From positions 14,420,405 through 14,484,404 of the forward strand of contig OX422184.1 of assembly GCA_949130485.1 (NCBI GenBank): a DNA stretch of 64,000 nucleotides, in the 5' to 3' direction. Position numbers and translations under genes: made by a program. Shown here one piece after another: positions 11,030 to 21,474 of the stretch. Each line of letters begins with the position of its first letter. Position 1 is the first letter of the stretch. This DNA is from Agelas oroides (taxonomy: Eukaryota > Porifera > Demospongiae > Agelasida > Agelasidae). Under the pieces are notes generated by a model, which saw only the letters and a list, made by a program, of their open reading frames with translations, was not told the DNA's origin and ran no database searches.

Positions 11030-11051
11030 ACACTAAGGTTCTGCGGACCAG

Positions 11052-11101
11052 TAGTCTCGTGCCCAGCCGGAAATAACCTACGGAAAATCCGTCTGGTAAC
11101 A
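11052..11101 (+). repeat. Left terminal inverted repeat of the KDZ-like transposon
   Basis: About 50 bp from TAGTCTCGTGCCCAGC to GTCTGGTAACA. The inner block CCTACGGAAAATCCGTCTGG matches the right arm exactly and contains the small palindrome ACGGAAAATCCGT. Confidence 0.9.
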
Positions 11102-11370
11102 TTGCGCGCCTTTCTTGGGCTTTTGCACACGTCAGCAGGGTTTGAACGCGGCCATATATGGACGTTCTCACCTCTACATGGCTTCAATTATCACCAATTA
11201 GCATCCGCACAAGCGCTAGGGCGCCAGTGGGGAGCCATCCCGGGGTACCTTTTCTAAGGTCTCTCCTGATTGGTCAAAACAGCTAAAGTGTGACATGCAC
11301 GTGACCTTTCTAAGCTGTAATTTGATTGGTCAACCAGCTCCATAGATATAACAAACACAAGCAACACAGC

Positions 11371-12130
11371 AAGTGCAAGAAACACAAGAAACAGAGAAAC
11401 ACAAGAAACAAGAGAAACACGAGAAACACAAGAAACACGAGAAACCAAAGAAACACGAGAAACCCAAGAAACACGAGAAACACGAGAAACCCAAGAAACA
11501 CGAGAAACACGAGAAACCCAAGAAACACAAGAAACACGAGAAACACGAGAAACACGAGAAACACGAGAAACACGAGAAACCCAAGAAACACGAGAAACCC
11601 AAGAAACACGAGAAACCCAAGAAACACGAGAAACCCAAGAAACACGAGAAACCCAAGAAACACGAGAAACACGAGAAACACGAGAAACACGAGAAACCCA
11701 AGAAACACGAGAAACACGAGAAACCCAAGAAACCCAAGAAACACGAGAAACCCAAGAAACACGAGAAACATGAGAAACCCAAGAAACACGAGAAACACAA
11801 GAAACACGAGAAACACGAGAAACACGAGAAACACGAGAAACACGAGAAACCCAAGAAACACGAGAAACACGAGAAACACGAGAAACACGAGAAACCCAAG
11901 AAACACGAGAAACACGAGAAACCCAAGAAACACGAGAAACACAAGAAACACAAGAAACAAGAGAAACACGAGAAACCCGAGAAACCCAAGAAACCCAAGA
12001 AACACGAGAAACACGAAAAACAAGAGAAACACGAGAAACCCGAGAAACCCAAGAAACCCAAGAAACACGACAAACACGAGAAACACGAGAAACACTAAAA
12101 ACAACACGAAACACGAGAAACACATGAAAC
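11371..12130 (+). repeat. Minisatellite of 9-bp units in the left arm
   Basis: About 80 units of GAAACACGA, interspersed with GAAACCCAA variants, fill 760 bp. The unit length is a multiple of three, so all frames stay open and give lysine/glutamate/histidine/proline or RNT-type repeats on one strand and VSR/FLV/CFS repeats on the other. These long open frames are artefacts. The same motif occurs inverted in the right arm. Confidence 0.95.
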
Positions 12131-12239
12131 ACAGCAAATATGTGAATTGCAACAAATTCTTCAACATATGCATAAAAACAAGAAGCAAAAAGCAACTACT
12201 GAAAGTTTCAGATACAGAAACCAAAAACAATTAAAACGT

Positions 12240-14074
12240 CAATAATGAGCAACCCTCAGAACTGACATGTATGTGTAATTGTTATCTGACATGTATACAT
12301 ATGAAAAGTTTTTGCAGCATGTCAATACATCAGGATTCCAAGCAGCACAGTAACGTATTGTACTGTGATTGCACATGAGAGTGGATAACGTCAGCCAACT
12401 TCTGTTCACTTAATTGGGGGAGGTTGTTATTTCAAAGGTGATGTGCTCTGTGAGATGGACTTGATAACTCAACCAGACCTTTCTATTACCACCGAAAACT
12501 GGTTGAAGTATGGTGGCGTTGCTGTGAAGTAGGCATGTGAATTGCTAGATGATGTAATCATCACAGAACATGTAACAGCAGAAGTACCCGGTTCAGGCAT
12601 CATCACTTAGGTGCAAGTTTGCACAGGAGAGTTTGTACAAGTTTTCACCAATCCTCACCAGCTTAACACGGATAGTACTTCATACAGTACATGGCTATTG
12701 CAGCTCACCATCTACCACTTGTCATTCTCATCATTGCCACTTGACTTATGCTCTCCCTGCAACATACTTTTCCTCATCCTGCCACCTCACCCTTCACTTG
12801 ACTTGTGCTAACCACTGCCACCTCACACCCACCACGTACTTGACTTATCCTTACCACTGCTGCATTACTTATGCACCTATCAATGTTATTCCAGAAGACA
12901 TTATAGTCAGGGATTTGATTATCTCTGAAAACATCAATATGGCAATGTTTTCCATATACTCCATAGTTGGGTTAAGCCTGAGTGAGCCCCACACTACCGT
13001 GACTGCACTGTGCACGTTTGTGTATGCTTGCTTGTGGCCATACATGTATCTTAATGAGCGCATTAAGAGACCCAGAGCAAAGCCGACCCAAGTTGAAGCA
13101 CGCACTATTAAATGAGCGTTGTGCTGCTCACTCACGCACACCCCGAGATGATGAATCTTCTGCCTAGTTACACTGTATGTGTCAAATCCCCTGTTTTGCA
13201 GAATTCCATCTGACGTCATCACTGCCACACTTTCCGCATATACCGGTATACACGCCACCATGTTGGAAGGCAAGTGATTAAAACGTATGCAAAATTTATA
13301 TGGCTATTCCACAGGCTGGCTTTGAGGTATGGAGCATGTGTTTAGCATTAATTTTAGACTACGCAGAGAGCTAGTATGGACATTCAACACACCTGTACGA
13401 AAGGAATGTTACTTGAAGAAACATTGCTATAGCTGAAAACTGCCATTTTGCCTTCTAAGATGGCAAACACTATTTCTATAACATACCTCTGTTCTGGGTC
13501 AACTGGACAGATTTCAGTACTCAAACCCTCGCCTTGCCCCACTGTAGTCCGTACTGGGGGCAAGTGGATCGTAACATTGATAGGTGCATTACCCTCACCA
13601 CTGCAACCTCACACCTGTCACTTGGTTTATCCATAGATAGACTCCACTATCTATGGTTTATCCGAGGGTTTATCCTCGCTACTGCCGCTTGACTTATCCC
13701 CACCAGTACCACTTGCCACGCAACTCAGTGTCCCGATCACCCCTGGCATATGCAACTCTCCTGTGTGTAATAACCTGGTCAACTAGGAGTCCACACCTGG
13801 CCAGATTAGTAGAACAACGCGTTTCTCTTCCAAGCACAACTCAAATTGACAAACACCAGCTGCAAGGAGCTGAGTTCGAGTCTGGCCATGGGCCATGGGC
13901 CATGGGCATGGGTCCTGGGAGATCTAACGTGGTTCGGGGCGGGCGCGGCGCGGTACATATACGCCGGGCCGGTTGTGTTTCCGTTACGCAAGGTTATGTG
14001 AGTATATGCACCAAATTATATGAGAATAGCAAGTTGTTTGGTTCTCCGTAGCTCTCCATTGAGTCATGTGGCAG
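12240..14074. other. Left subterminal non-coding region of the transposon
   Basis: No conserved coding frame is visible between the minisatellite and the ATPase stop codon. A diverged fragment of the CGAGCCTGAGCAAGCCCC repeat family (see 29372-29836) occurs at about 12968-13075. A GC-rich patch lies near 13930-13975. Confidence 0.5.
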
Positions 14075-16441
14075 CTATATCCGCTGTCGTTTAGACAGGG
14101 GCTCCTGGGCACTGGTAGCCCCACCTGTGGTTTCACCCATGCCAGAAGCCGGATCAACTTCAGTCTGTGGAGTTGTGTATGTCTGAATGTCATCTTCAGA
14201 CTCTTCTCGATCCTCACTGTCTGCCATTGCTATTGAAAATCGAAACGGATATGCAATGCTAAAACAAACTTTGCTGACTGAGTAAGATATAAATTTGTTA
14301 CATACCTTGACGAATGCTTGTTAGTTGCTCATCAGCGATGATTGACTGAGCAATGATGTGGCAGTGTTGTCCAGCTGTATTACCACCTTGTCCTTTTCTC
14401 GCCTTGCAGATCTTGGTGTCAGCACTCCCAGGGTGAAGAAACTTCTGCTGGGATTTTCGGCACTGTGGACTAGCATTCAGTGCTGTTTCCACTTGTGCAG
14501 CGCTGATTTCCATCCTTGGCAGCAAAGCCATCACCTTTGTCACTCGGACAGCCAGACACAATTGTAGGTGGCACTTTGTTGAAACGTCTACACTAACAAC
14601 CTTGAGCAGCTAAAATAGGAAAAGATGTATATTTGCATCCAGGTGATTACTACGCACCTTATTGAAACAATTGCAGTCAACTACATACAAACCTCATTTC
14701 TGGGAATATCAGCAACATTTTGGGCCAGCACAGAAATGAAGCTATCCACCACTTCTCCAGGATTTGAAAGCTGGCTATTGGAGTTGGGGGAGCCTTCCAT
14801 GGCCAGTGGCACCATCTGACTGGATACAAAATCCCAACATGTATCCTCAGCAACTTCACAGAGGTCTGCAAGCTGTAAAAAAACAATGTGCAGTATATGC
14901 ATGGATAAAACAACTACTGGCAGTCTATATATACCTTGAGGAAAAAGTACATGAAGATTGTCATCATCGTTTTGAATCGTGCGTGGGCATTCTGATAGAG
15001 TGCAGACGTGTTTGTGAACAGGTCACCACGCAACAACATCTGTGCATCATTGGTAGTGAACCCAGTACTCAATCGAATGAACACTCCTGCTGATGCTGAT
15101 GCTTTTATGCGACATTCCTTTAGGTTGCTGTAGAGCTGTGGTGCATTTGGCTCATCTTTATGCTCAATAAATGGGATTGAGATGCAGCGAGTGAATGCCC
15201 TTCCCTTTCCACTGGGAAACCGCCAATTTGCTGACAGGATGGGAATTGTGGAAAAACTCTCAACACTGTAGGATCTTGTTCCTCGAGCAGTGTTATTGTA
15301 AGCATCAATGATCAGCTCTTCCCAAATATCTTGGGTTTTCTCATTGATGTCATCCACTGCTATGGGAATGGTGGTACGCTTCAAGGCACCAAAGAGGTAG
15401 GATGCTGTAGTCTGGCTGTTCAAAAGGTGTGTATCGTGTGCACCAAACAACGCAAGACCACACAGGATAGCTTCTGTCTTACAGGATCCAGGCTCTCCAA
15501 ACAGGAATGGTACACCAACGTGACCACATCTAGTGATGATCTGCTCATAAGCTGCTCCCATTATGCATGAAGCCATGGTAGCAAGCCAGGCTATGGCATT
15601 ATCAGGCATAAAAGCCTCAACAGCAGCATAGAGGTCTTTCAATGCTTCACCATCATCGAGTGGCATGCAGATAGTGCAATGTAGTCGTTTTTCACCCTCA
15701 AGACCATTTGCACTTGGTAACCAGACAAACCGTGAGTTGTTGCATTCTACCCAATTACCATCTCGATCAAGCTGTGTGCTTGGAGAAAACATCCACACTT
15801 CATCTCCATCCTGGGTTGTGTTTCGACCAATGACACTTACTCCATTGACAATGCGATGGTTTCCTTGCAGAAATGCACACGTCAGTTCCATGAACAGTCT
15901 CTTGAACTCAACATCATTGCACACCAGGAATAGTGCCCCACCAGGAAACACAAGGTTGATGTGAGCACTGAACTGTTTTAGGTTGGACAGCTCAGACATA
16001 GGTAGAAAGCACTCTCTGTGGAAATAATTGTCCTGCAAATTAGTAACATTCTGTATATGTGATTAATAACTCGCGCTTGCTAGTCTTTTTGCAGATACGA
16101 CATCCATGGACGCATGCCATACAATAGTTATGCTGCATATATTCATGAGTATGCATGTTGGTGCAGCGCGTGTTACCAGGTATTACCAAGCGGGCATGCA
16201 TGCATGCACTATATAATACTCTGCATTAAGATGTCCTTAAGCAATTCCAGCATATATACACTCACCTCTCGACGCCGTCAGGAATGCGCTTTATTAGCAC
16301 CAGAAAACCGGAATCTGCATTCTCAACTGAAGCTGTTAGCTTCAGGGTGAAGTTGGAAACAGGCTCGCTGGTGTTATTGCGCTCATTGCTTCGATGTATT
16401 CCGTCCTCTTTTACGCAGAGAGAAGTGACCGGCATTTTCAT
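14075..16441 (-). CDS. P-loop NTPase of the KDZ-like transposon (5 exons, 631 aa)
   Basis: Exons, in order of translation, are 16441-16266, 16015-14935, 14872-14693, 14609-14306 and 14229-14075. All introns are GT-AG, and the exons sum to 632 codons with the stop. The core has a Walker A motif (GEPGSCKT, roughly residues 225-235) and a candidate Walker B strand (IPIAVDDI). It continues with ILSANWRFPSGKGRAFTR, which looks like sensor and arginine-finger territory. This suggests an AAA+ or helicase/primase-type ATPase, perhaps DUF927- or SF3-like, but I cannot place the family. The tail is acidic and ends SKRQRI, a possible nuclear signal. The gene is divergent from the transposase and shares a 191-bp promoter with it. 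A second ATG (16435) is possible. A role in transposition is inferred from linkage. Confidence 0.75.
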
Positions 16442-16632
16442 ACCTTTGCAACAACTGTCACAAATTGTAGCTAAGAAACCACGGTTGTGAAGACGTTGCT
16501 CATAGCCAATCAGAGCCTCTGATGTTAGAATGAAATACTATTGGCTAATATTTTGCGTACTACGGCGTAGCCATGACATTACGAATAGCAGTAAAGTTTA
16601 CTTTATAGGTGGGCAAAGAGTAAATATACAGT
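16442..16632. promoter_or_regulatory. Bidirectional promoter between ATPase and transposase genes
   Basis: The 191 bp between the two start codons hold CCAAT at 16506-16510 and its inverse ATTGG at 16540-16544, one facing each gene. An AT-rich TAAATATA lies near 16620, just before the transposase ATG. Shared control would make both proteins together. Confidence 0.5.
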
Positions 16633-19600
16633 ATGTGGCGTCTTCCTTCTATTGTGCGAAAAAGAGGTTGTTCGGTGTGTGTGCACTGTGGATGTAGCAA
16701 TGGCAACCGTGCGTTGACTTGCAAGGCATGCAAGAACCAGTTACCCGGTAAAGCAGTGAAACGTCCAAAGCGGCTACTGTCTGCAGATGTGTCTATTCTT
16801 CGCAACGACTCCCAGGAAACTCCAGCAGGAACAAAGATATTTTCTACAAAAGTGAGGAGAGACGGCCCCGACTACCGGACACTTGTGGTTTGCAACGAAG
16901 GCAAGTGGAAATGCTTTTGCAAAGAATGCAACACTGCTCAGGACGCTAGAGAAAGGTCTGCTAGTACCTCCAAGTTGGAGTGTACTTGCCAACACATAAC
17001 CACCGTGCAAGAGGAGTTGCAGTGGCACGACATTGACCAGCTCTCACTCGATACTGATGCCCTATCAAACCTGCCTATTCCGCGTTCTATCAGACAGGAG
17101 CTACAGGCGATGAAAGAAGAAGCCCCAGCTTTGGTTCAGAGAGTTTCCAGTGATTCCTTTGTGGTTCGAAATAGGGAATGCACTCAGGAACATCCGCTAG
17201 GACTCCTGCACGTTCGATTCCGAGCGCAGCAGCCCCTCCCCGAAAGCGGTTGTGAGCCCCGCCCCTTCTTTTATTGCCCTTGTCACACCTTTCAGAGGTT
17301 TTCTTCCCTGCTCCCTGGCCCCGCTACTACGCCAAAGCTCTCTCGCCGGTGTCTGCATTTCTATGTATGCCTGTGGGCCTTTGCAAGCAACAGAAGTCTC
17401 AGAGATGAGTTCTCCTTTTACCTTTCAGGCATAAACAGTGAAGGTGAGGGTGCACGTACTGTATAACAGTTTTATAATATTAACATATAATCATACTGAT
17501 GTTTAGCCACTGGAGACGTGCTCACACCCTTGGAGAAATCACCCACAGTACATTGTGACAGATTGAAAGGTATTGATTTGTTTGTCAATTTTCACCTGAT
17601 TTTTGTTGTAGTGCCAACGTTGACCCGAGAAGCGGCCGTGAAGAACACCATAAGTGCATTTTTGTGTGTTTCTGAGAGCATCCCTGAAGATCCAGAAAGC
17701 ATTTCGAATATACTACAGCACATTGCTACATGCAATGCTCAGGCAGTTATTGGCACACCAGGTGGCACTACCCACTGGCCTGATTTGTTTTATCCCACCA
17801 CCACCCACTGTGTGCTCTGCAACCAAGAGCTTTCTTCTCCCATCCATCCAACAGGCTCAAACAGAAAATCCTACCTGCTGACAAAGGTGCAACTATTTCC
17901 AGTGACAGCAAAAATCAGGAAATGTACCAACCAAGACTGTATGGCAAGATACAGTTACAGTACATGGAGGGAAGGTAACATAATTTTTTTTATTGTGCAT
18001 GTGTTTGTGTTTTGTAGTACAGTTGCATGCAATCATTACACAGTTGCATGCAATTATTAGACAGTTGCATGCAATTATTAGACAGTTACATGCAATCATT
18101 ACACAGTTGCATGCAATATTACACAGTTGCATCAATCATTCCTTAGGTATTTTCAACATCTCGAACAAGCTGTTTGTAACCCTTGACATTCTGTACGACA
18201 TGAGAAACCATGTGGAGAAAGGAGAACCTCCAGGAAACTGCGCAAATGCTATGCTCAAGAGCTGCTGCCTCAGTGTCAATAAGGTTGAGCTTGATGAAGG
18301 CGAGTTCAGGTACCTGGAGCAGAAGCTATATGATGGGTACTATGCATTTGAGGCCATGACAGAGCGTGACTGGAACGAAAGCATCTGTGGGATTTGTGGT
18401 GTTGCCCCTGTTTTTGAGAGTGGAGATGGTAACTGTAAAAACTGCACACCACTACGGATAGGCTAATTAACTTATAATAGATTTGTACTGCACTGTTCTG
18501 TTATTTCCAGTGTGTGTGGTCTGAAACCTTGCCTGCTGATGGCACTGGAGCAGTTGATATGGACGGGTGGTGGAAAGCAATTGAGGACAAAATGATTGAG
18601 GCTGCAGTGTACTATAGTGCTACACCCATCCACCTTAAAGCCGACAAAATTGCTCCATGGATCCCCCCTGCATGCAGAGGAAGAGTGGTGTTAAACACGG
18701 AGCATTTGAAAGGTATGCATCCCCATGTGGAATACTTATCAAGCAGCCTAAAAAGGCTTACAAAACACATTATAGGTTAGTTTGAAAGTGCAAAATATGT
18801 TTCTCAGTACAGTATACAATAAAACTTTTGAGGGGAAGCCAGGGAAAAGGGAAAAATGAGTGAGAAAAGATACTTGTAGCTGAGACAGTTAAACGTTTCT
18901 TGAATTCTGTGTAGGAGGAAACCAACACCACCACCACTCAGGAGATACTCCCACTGGTTGTCCCAAAAAACTTGCTGAAGTTATAAGAACAGGACAATAC
19001 AACCCTGCCAAGGTTGGCAGTACCAGCGCACCTGAACTGAGAGCAGTATGTGAAGCAGTTGACATCCCTGTTGGATTACATCCAACAAAGGTGCTTGAAT
19101 ATTTTTATCTCGACTTAATATCAACCCTTTTCAATTTTAATCCTAGCCTCGTTCCCAGGCCCGTAGGGGTTAAAACCGCGGTTTTAACCCCTACGGGCCT
19201 GGGAACGAGGCTATTTTAATCCATGCTACATGTTTTAAATTTTGCAGCCACAGATGCTTGTTCTTTTGGAGAAGTTGCATTCATTCGTGCTTCAGGGCAA
19301 GAGTGAATGCCACGTATTTGAAGCGGCTCCATCCTGCACTGGTGGGAAAGTCTTCAAAAACTGTAACCACCAGGTAATTTGCATTACTTCAGATGTAGCA
19401 TACATTTATAGTAGTTTACACCACCATGCTGTACATGCAGGTTATATCTGCCACAAAGTACATTGTGCGGAAGGAAAGCACCAGAGATCATGTTGACCTC
19501 CTCCTTTCTTCACGATGCTGGCCTACAGTGTATGCTGTAGACATGGCGTGTGATGTGGTTGCACACATGGAAGTCCGTGAGCCGCAACTAGCAAGTGCCC

Positions 19601-20241
19601 TGTGGGGAGACAGACGAGGATGTTTTGAGGTACCATCAGCAAGTACTCCACCAAAGGTGAGCTACATGCACAAAAGTATAAGTGGTCTAATCTTATTCAC
19701 GCATAAAATATGTTTGCATTTACAGATCATACATGTACAACAGTTGAAAAGCCCCCACTCCTTACCAACTCCATCTGATGTTGCATTGCGAGATCACAGT
19801 TACTGTAGGCAGGTTTTGCACCCTCTCACCCAAACAACAGATAGATACATTGTTGGAGATCGCTTCCATGATGGCCCACGAACATCAGGACACAAGAAAC
19901 CCACATGCAAGTTCCATAACATGCGACTTTGCCCGGAAGTGACACAGTATCAATCAGTGGTGTCAGAGGTGATAAACTCTAAAATAAAGACAGTACGACT
20001 GCAGTCCAGTTCTCAGCAAAACATGCAACATTACTTCTTTTATAACCGGTTAATGGACTACTGGCACAACAAAAGCATCATAACGAAACAGCTACAGCAG
20101 ATGAAAGCTAAACTCCAACAAGGCGAGACTGTTGTTCGTGACCGTCTACACCGCTTTGTGTATGCATGTTCACTATGCAAAACTCCTGGTCATACTCAGC
20201 ATACATGTCAACAACTACCAGACTACATGTCACCACAATAG
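16633..20241 (+). CDS. KDZ-superfamily DDE transposase with cysteine clusters (9 exons, 903 aa)
   Basis: Modelled exons: 16633-17443, 17507-17569, 17612-17974, 18147-18428, 18554-18712, 18915-19090, 19248-19373, 19441-19656 and 19726-20241, totalling 904 codons with the stop. The N terminus has CVHCG...CKACK, then a SWIM-like cluster (WKCFCKEC...LECTCQH), more CxxC pairs, a HHHHSGDTPTGCPKK loop and an RNase-H-like core. Likely catalytic acids are D in VYAVDMACDVV, D in VGDRFHDG (followed by C..H and C) and E in SEVINSKIK. The end is cysteine/histidine-rich (CSLCKTPGHTQHTC). This order recalls KDZ transposases and the transposon-derived part of vertebrate HMGXB3. The exon 4/5 junction is least certain: a stronger acceptor at 18510 would break the frame. 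Intron 3 holds a small tandem repeat and intron 6 a palindromic MITE. Confidence 0.82.
18012..18135 (+). repeat. 21-bp tandem repeat in transposase intron 3
   Basis: About six units of ACAGTTGCATGCAATCATTAC, with ATTATTAG variants, lie just before the exon 4 acceptor at 18146. The palindromic core TTGCATGCAA recurs in most units. Confidence 0.9.
19144..19213. mobile_element. 70-bp perfect palindrome with 9-bp target duplication
   Basis: The 70 bp are self-complementary over both 35-bp halves, start TAGCCTCGTTCCCAGGCC, and centre on CCGCGG. The flanks TTTTAATCC (19135-19143 and 19214-19222) are identical. It lies in intron 6 of the transposase gene, so it inserted after the large element existed. 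Confidence 0.95.
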
Positions 20242-20419
20242 CATAATTATAGACAGCCAAAAGGATGTCAGAAACGAGCAGTGTAACAATGTTAAAATTA
20301 TGTATCAGTATGCATCGTGATTGTAGCATTGTATTTTTCAAACTTTGTATTTCGAGCACCACAAATGCCTCAACAGCATCTTTATGCCATTATAGTCATA
20401 AACTTGCATGAGTCCTAAA

Positions 20420-20545
20420 TCCCACCATAGCCATAACCCTCAGACCTAAATTGTCATAAGTCATAACCATAACTAAATCTAGCCCTAACCCTAACCTTAG
20501 CCCTATTCCCTAACCCTAACCCTAACCCTAACCTTAGTCCTATTC
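20420..20545. repeat. Degenerate CCCTAA (telomere-type) repeats in the right arm
   Basis: Runs of CCCTAACCCTAACC, broken by CCTTAGCCCTATT variants, occur 180 bp after the transposase stop. They match the TTAGGG telomere repeat of most animals, read on the minus strand. Confidence 0.8.
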
Positions 20546-20772
20546 TGAAACCCTAAATCTAAAACCTCCATCAGCCCCACCCTCCTCCCTAACTAACCCT
20601 GTTGGACGATTCTTACCCACCAGTCACTATGTGTGGTTCTTGCATAATGCAAGACCACACACATAATGCAAGACCACACACACTCAGGGTAAGGCTGAGA
20701 AATGTGTTCTTAGCCTTACTCAGTTACTATGTGTGGCTTCTCATGCTTCTTGCATTTCTGAACACCACTCGG

Positions 20773-20999
20773 CAGTTGCTGTGACGGTGTTTCTCAGCAA
20801 CACTCTCCAGTTACTGTGACCGTGTTTCTCAGCAACACTCTCCAGTTACTGTGACCGTGTTTCTCAGCAACACTCTCCCGTTACCGTGTTTCTGGGGTTT
20901 CTCGTGTTTCTCATGTTTCTCAGCAACACTCTCCCGTTTCCGTGTTTCTTGGGTTTCTCGTGTTTCTCAGCAACACTCTCCAGTTACTGTGACCGTGTT
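20773..20999 (+). repeat. 35-bp tandem repeat in the right arm
   Basis: Units of CAGTTACTGTGACCGTGTTT followed by CTCAGCAACACTCTC recur about five times, some shortened, and grade into the GTTTCTCGT minisatellite. Confidence 0.85.
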
Positions 21000-21092
21000 T
21001 CTGGGGTTTCTCGTGTTTCTCGTGTTTCTCGCGTTTCTTGTGTTTCTCGCGTTTCTTGTGTTTCTCGCGTTTCTCATGTTTCTTGTGTTTCT
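20884..21092 (-). repeat. Right-arm minisatellite, inverted partner of the left-arm array
   Basis: GTTTCTCGT/GTTTCTTGT units are the complement of the left-arm GAAACACGA units, so the pair extends the inverted-repeat structure of the transposon. This array is much shorter than the 760-bp left one. Confidence 0.9.
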
Positions 21093-21290
21093 GTGACTTT
21101 TGTTGCTTGTACCTATGATTATTAATGACATCATAATGACATCATCCCTTCTGACCAATCACATTAAGTCTTAGAAAAGCCACTCCGGGACTGTAGCCAG
21201 TGGGCCGCCCGAATAATTGGACATACTACAATTTGATTGGCACGTTCAAATAACTCCGTCGTAAGTAGAAAAGCCCCAGAATCGAGCCCA

Positions 21291-21340
21291 ACGTTACCAG
21301 ACGGATTTTCCGTAGGTTTTTCCAGCTGGTCACGAGACTA
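21291..21340 (-). repeat. Right terminal inverted repeat of the KDZ-like transposon
   Basis: This is the inverted partner of 11052-11101, with a few substitutions next to the tip (GACCAGCTGG for GCCCAGCCGG on the same reading) and a perfect inner block of about 28 bp. Confidence 0.9.
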
Positions 21341-21474
21341 GCGGACCAGAGACTAGATGTATTTTCTAGCGTGAAGTCACGTGGTGTTGCTTAGCCTCGT
21401 TCCCAGCCCTGGGAACAAAACTAGCGCATAATTTGTCAGATATCCCATTCCAGAGACCAGACCAACTTCATGCT

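Follow-up and report, generated by a model that had tools for sequence, protein, structure and literature searches.

The window, a 64,000-nucleotide stretch of the 259-Mb genome of the sponge Agelas oroides (C2:14420405-14484404), very probably contains a nested insertion, in which a 9,965-bp transposon flanked by 8-bp target duplications lies inside a 316-bp miniature inverted-repeat transposable element (MITE) flanked by 9-bp duplications. The transposon would belong to a KDZ-related lineage and carries, divergently oriented to its transposase gene, a gene for a predicted Cch/MCM-like AAA+ helicase. The features that define the two insertions are as follows.

11043..11051, no strand: left 9-bp target duplication of the outer MITE, GCGGACCAG (from sequence)
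11052..11231, forward: left part of the host MITE, interrupted by the nested element (genome DNA search and alignment)
11224..11231, no strand: left 8-bp target duplication of the nested element, CCAGTGGG (end comparison)
11232..21196, forward: nested two-gene transposon, 9,965 bp (genome search, end alignment and sibling comparison)
11232..11279, forward: left end, imperfect terminal inverted repeat, GAGCCATCCCGGGGTACC... (pairwise alignment of both ends)
11378..12132, forward: left subterminal array, ~84 units of AGAAACACG (repeat analysis)
20994..21092, reverse: right subterminal array of inverted CGTGTTTCT units (11 units by Tandem Repeats Finder; 16 within the final 300 bp, two mismatches allowed)
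21149..21196, reverse: right end, imperfect terminal inverted repeat, ...CCGGGACTGTAG (pairwise alignment; terminus also in family 2)
21197..21204, no strand: right 8-bp target duplication, CCAGTGGG (end comparison)
21205..21340, forward: right part of the host MITE (genome DNA search and alignment)
21341..21349, no strand: right 9-bp target duplication of the outer MITE, GCGGACCAG (from sequence)

With the left kilobase as a DNA query, bases 1-180 hit short elements (97-100%), while from base ~181 the matches fell at a different set of genome places; matches to the right end divided likewise at window position 21196. Joining 11052-11231 to 21205-21341 gave a 317-bp sequence (base 317 is part of the duplication, hence a MITE length of 316 bp), which aligned to all 15 fetched MITE copies at 96.5-99.7%, and no alignment (0/15) was gapped within 10 bases of the join. 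With the window copy included (n = 16), the 9-bp duplication was perfect in 12, matched over 8 bp in two and had no perfect match in two, one of which was identical at 8/9 bases. Because the joined flanks recur intact and with 9-bp duplications, the outer structure is a 316-bp MITE in which the large element is nested. The original prediction had described 11052-21340 as a single element, complete and possibly active, that encodes a 903-aa transposase and is flanked by a 9-bp duplication. The 9-bp repeats, the matching ends and the exon sums do exist, but the repeats and ends belong to the MITE: in 15/15 fetched copies the outer ends enclose an empty 316-bp unit, which refutes those boundaries, the fetched relatives of the inner element have the inner ends, and the 903-aa model uses a donor that cuts codons conserved in four other loci. 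The single-element reading therefore retains next to no probability, and the bounds of the large element are corrected to 11232-21196. The MITE, with its 9-bp duplications, and the nested element have different ends.

The nested element begins with GAGCCATCCCGGGG and ends with CCGGGACTGTAG. The ends were surveyed at 26 loci (24 places once each and the joined sibling, with L041 and L061 overlapping). Loci with one end only (L036, L040, L041, L051, L058, L059, L060 and L061) were excluded from the duplication count, as was L049, the one of the 22 listed copies with a damaged right end. The remaining 21 copies, 19 of the window's family (window included) and two of family 2, had a perfect 8-bp duplication in 17 cases, one mismatch in two and no duplication in two; the element inserts with duplication of 8 bp. 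A 9-bp duplication was rejected, the ninth base matching in 6/21.

Movement of the two-gene unit was evident from the two family 2 copies, C14:5301345-5315156 and C18:4210062-4223856. For the stretches compared, which are not the whole length, these were identical over 4,107 bp and 2,056 bp on the helicase side and 99.4% identical over 3,264 bp at the opposite end, yet their 8-bp duplications differ (CGTCTGGG and CTCTACCT respectively). The pair thus documents directly that the two-gene unit transposed recently. A sibling of the window copy, at C2:9.17 Mb, is 96.6% identical to it over 9,152 aligned bases; the sibling's exon 4 is reduced to 78/282 bases, an insert splits its exon 9 and its main helicase exon contains an inversion of 179 bp. 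Five similar two-gene copies (C6:10.16, C7:10.40, C11:8.71, C19:0.69 and C19:1.22 Mb) are another young family; three are 98.85-99.7% identical over ~2.4 kb beyond the helicase gene, and for two, comparison of the transposase-side end gave 94.0% and 97.7% identity over the two longest matches. These five copies carry 20-22-bp subterminal arrays. In both family 2 copies a large part of the transposase gene is duplicated in tandem (C14:5308310-5313837 and C18:4211364-4216891).

Subterminal arrays were measured in 18 family 1 copies, in addition to the window. Forward AGAAACACG arrays start ~120-160 bp in from the left end, and inverted arrays stop ~80-105 bp from the right end in 18/18 copies, with 31-165 units on the left and 11-40 on the right (up to two mismatches). 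Short copies of 890-2,264 bp, made up mostly of ends and arrays, accounted for 16/18; like the outer 316-bp unit, these 0.9-2.3 kb array derivatives resemble MITEs in being short elements with ends. Two other families have their own array units, ~61 copies of CAGCAAACA in one and 20-22-bp units in another. The arrays are a kept feature across copies, and may be binding sites. Two copies, L040 (C5:2276300-2277200) and L053 (C18:3785650-3786950), have a right flank in common on different contigs, therefore one may sit in a duplicated stretch. An Rfam scan of the window gave no matches.

The original prediction of two divergent genes, with exon sums of exactly 903 and 631 aa, held. The genes and the residues discussed below are as follows.

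14075..16441, reverse: Cch/MCM-like helicase gene, five exons (16441-16266, 16015-14935, 14872-14693, 14609-14306 and 14229-14075), 631-aa model (translation, alignment and Foldseek)
16633..20241, forward: KDZ-related, HMGXB3-like transposase gene, nine exons in the 903-aa model, intron-4 junction defective (translation, Pfam, homology and family comparison)
18425..18433, forward: conserved DGN codons, which hold the first proposed catalytic Asp and are interrupted by the donor used in the 903-aa model (family and motif comparison)
18457..18458, forward: junction of an 18-bp deletion that removed the intron-4 splice donor (comparison with sibling and families)
19540..19542, forward: proposed second catalytic Asp, VDMACD (conserved in alignments A2/A6)
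19858..19860, forward: Asp of the conserved GDRFH...H...C motif (alignments and motif comparison)
19966..19968, forward: proposed catalytic Glu, SEVINSK (alignments and motif comparison)

The profile search that had been proposed for the 903-aa protein gave a match to the cysteine cluster CxC4 (PF18717, E 2.2e-8; 34.5 bits, the cut-off being 26.9), which Pfam describes as a 'cysteine cluster associated with KDZ transposases', and none to the KDZ domain itself. Nine single exons or frames gave only weak Pfam matches. The motif order DGN - DxAC - DxFH - Glu, picked after the sequences had been inspected, was found in 3/3 sister-family proteins and in two of three canonical KDZ proteins from the same genome, these two being long enough for all four motifs. 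The 34 Pfam KDZ matches of canonical type (C1, C2, C3, C5, C6, C8, C9, C10, C11, C14 and C21) all lie outside these elements. CxC5 was also present in one of the three canonical KDZ proteins scanned. The transposase is read as DDE-type and KDZ-related, with DDE catalysis presumed, and is not assigned to Kyakuja, Dileera or Zisupton. The earlier identification as a KDZ-like two-gene transposon stands as regards the cysteine cluster, motif order and 8-bp duplication, and fails as regards the Pfam KDZ domain.

The transposase gene of the window copy is probably broken, judging from comparison with its relatives. Exon 4 of the sibling, and of three other families, continues via GDGN(C/A)K(N/K)CTPL as far as a probable splice donor. 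After 18457, 18 bp present in the sibling are missing from the window copy, and the intron-4 donor is lost with them; other copies retain the junction. The 903-aa splice model, which instead splices at a GT within the GDGN codons and drops sequence conserved in four other loci, was rejected. Without splicing, the frame stops soon after, upstream of the second Asp and the Glu. The claims of intact reading frames and of a possibly active autonomous copy are not supported, and the window copy, having lost the donor, most likely depends on other copies.

Residues 330-903 of the transposase matched five proteins with E values down to 3.3e-74 and 30-32% identity over 93% of that length; three, from fishes, are named HMG domain- or HMG box domain-containing 3, and the two others have HMG-box domains. 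A profile of four families from this genome gave 15 matches, among them an HMGXB3-like protein from a ray and a GDGN-retaining protein from a coral. The homology with vertebrate HMGXB3 is collinear and includes CxC4, and an N-terminal zinc-ribbon-like motif is similar in both; HMGXB3 differs in having an HMG box (Pfam) and in its catalytic motifs. Among ten HMGXB3-type proteins, four of them unnamed, without HMG boxes and placed by sequence alone, DGN and DxFH were missing from all ten, the second Asp was present in all ten and the Glu in only two. To our knowledge HMGXB3 is regarded as a host gene, without flanking transposon ends. Decay of the catalytic motifs fits domestication, and HMGXB3 is most simply read as a domesticated and catalytically dead relative of the transposase. 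The homology by itself has no direction, and HMGXB3 might instead be an ancestral host gene captured by the transposon; the motif losses (DGN and DxFH in 10/10, Glu in 8/10) alongside a second Asp kept in 10/10, and the GDGN of the coral protein, make such a capture very unlikely. Descent in the other sense makes this KDZ-related lineage, with its Cch-like helicase, the likely mobile relative of HMGXB3, and offers a likely origin for a poorly understood vertebrate gene. A transposon origin was not found among the HMGXB3 literature matches listed (in one case the best 20 of 64). The mouse HMGXB3 mutant formed part of a study of embryonic lethality, an excerpt of which reports changes in DNA-repair and cell-cycle genes (PMC6594971).

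The P-loop ATPase noted in the original prediction was found beside the transposase in many copies, and structure prediction made its identity more specific, as a Cch/MCM-like AAA+ helicase fold. The best Foldseek matches were the replication initiator helicases Cch of SCCmec and Rep of SaPIBov1 (DUF927, MCM-like), which covered most of the 360-residue exon; the predicted structure shares the AAA+ initiator-helicase fold with both, at sequence identities of only 12% and 8%. The P-loop and Arg-finger-like residues are invariant in the helicase alignment. NCBIfam and PHROGs searches with four helicase-type proteins gave weak matches only (phrog_8841, primase/helicase, E 0.057 and 0.27), and PDB sequence searches gave nothing useful. 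Profile scans based on two short patterns found no relatives in 25 stretches of prokaryote genomes or in 46 stretches of viral contigs. The partner also differs, being a DDE-type transposase here and the Ccr site-specific recombinases in SCCmec, as described in an excerpt of PMC7581432.

The genome search for further copies returned others sharing both ends and both genes, so that the objection foreseen originally, a lack of such copies, did not apply. Pairing was assessed from 38 of 79 helicase matches (the other 41 being further exons of those places) and 27 of 91 transposase matches (one or two per place). The counts are lower bounds, since scores were computed for 70 of 110 candidates in one protein search and 50 of 156 in the other. 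Of the 14 best helicase places (the first 14 matches in this genome, window included), 13 had transposase exons within 12.5 kb, all divergent. Among these best places are the sibling, the C14/C18 pair and the five similar copies on C6, C7, C11 and C19. Of 24 weaker helicase matches, two had transposase exons within 20 kb, both in the copy at C2:10.01 Mb. The helicases of paired, divergent families are 45-64% identical to that of the window; since pairing and divergence hold across this range, the two genes have long been kept together. Distant helicase relatives (23-33% identity; C16:2787245, C7:9044590, C22:5103793, C17:4291038 and others), with no transposase detected nearby, are either other element families or host genes.

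Several observations weigh against the identification of a KDZ-related transposon with a Cch-like helicase. At E up to 10, Pfam KDZ (PF18758) matched neither the 903-aa model nor three sister-family proteins in which the DGN region is included, while the control, three canonical KDZ proteins of the same genome, matched in 3/3 cases. A comparison by hhalign with those canonical proteins aligned at DGN with a probability of 0.2, which is not significant, at an effective sequence number of only 1.5-2.5. For these two reasons the transposase is labelled KDZ-related and not a KDZ member. An RNase H fold for the transposase is putative, the predicted structure of one HMGXB3-type protein having reached a confidence (pLDDT) of only 43.9. 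The helicase matched no Pfam family at E up to 10, DUF927 included, and a profile search of PDB sequences gave no Cch. Foldseek ranks the poxvirus D5/E5 helicases, which are of the SF3 type, next after Cch (E from 4.4e-6), so that the branch within the helicases is assigned only provisionally. One good helicase place, C1:27.36 Mb, has no transposase partner in range, and 6/27 transposase matches have no helicase within 20 kb. Intron and donor positions were read from DNA comparison alone, and the window copy could yield some product through a cryptic splice. Helicase activity, array binding and a role in transposition are inferred.

With KDZ elements (Zisupton, Dileera and Kyakuja) the nested element shares a CxC-type cysteine cluster, the DGN - DxAC - DxFH - Glu order and a multi-exon transposase; it differs in lacking a Pfam KDZ match and in carrying a Cch-like helicase gene. 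An excerpt of PMC12730594 gives an 8-bp duplication for Zisupton and Dileera, as here, and for Kyakuja a 7-bp duplication, CA..TG ends and no inverted repeats, whereas the nested element has 8 bp, GA..AG ends and imperfect inverted repeats and so falls outside Kyakuja. No element that pairs KDZ or Zisupton with a helicase was among the literature matches listed. KolobokH is likewise a eukaryotic DDE transposon carrying a helicase, which, in an excerpt of PMC9587614, is of the RecQ type and accompanies a Kolobok transposase and a 4-bp TTAA target. A eukaryotic transposon of the cut-and-paste type with a replication-initiator-like helicase as partner would represent a new way to move or multiply.

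The transposase would recognize the terminal repeats, probably together with the arrays, and insert with an 8-bp stagger. The helicase may load at or near the iteron-like arrays and either open or replicate the element or remodel the transposase complex; a replicative or unwinding role is given about even weight. Short derivatives, consisting of little beyond ends and arrays, would be mobilized in trans by intact copies. Bacterial DDE-type transposases adjoin ATPases in several systems (TnsC, MuB and IstB), and by analogy the helicase-fold protein might be a target-choice or assembly ATPase that neither unwinds nor replicates; the layout and the invariant P-loop and Arg-finger-like residues, needed for any AAA+ role, would suit it. 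This is doubtful, as the best fold matches are the Cch and SaPIBov1 Rep initiators and not target-selection ATPases, and the arrays at both ends would suit an initiator. The gene could also be passenger cargo, dispensable for transposition, like the TET/JBP genes that, according to an excerpt of PMC12730594, fungal KDZ and other fungal transposons acquired several times. The transposase matches without a nearby helicase agree with cargo, but the persistence of pairing and divergent orientation across families with helicases 45-64% identical to the window's makes it unlikely. A fuller proposal, held tentatively, is a separate superfamily sister to KDZ that moves with its own MCM/Cch-like helicase on terminal iteron arrays, is possibly copied while excised and left HMGXB3 as a domesticated, catalytically dead descendant. 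Such a mode of movement is testable because near-identical copies exist in one genome.

Two introns of the window transposase gene contain further repeats. Intron 6 includes 79 bp (19134-19212) with a long inverted repeat (CCTCGTTCCCAGGCCCGTAGGGGTTAAAACC...) that is missing from the sibling and looks like a tiny fold-back insertion; similar CCTCGTTCCCAG pieces occur near 21395 and 21479. Intron 3 contains approximately six direct repeats of the 21-bp unit ACAGTTGCATGCAATCATTAC at 18019-18140.
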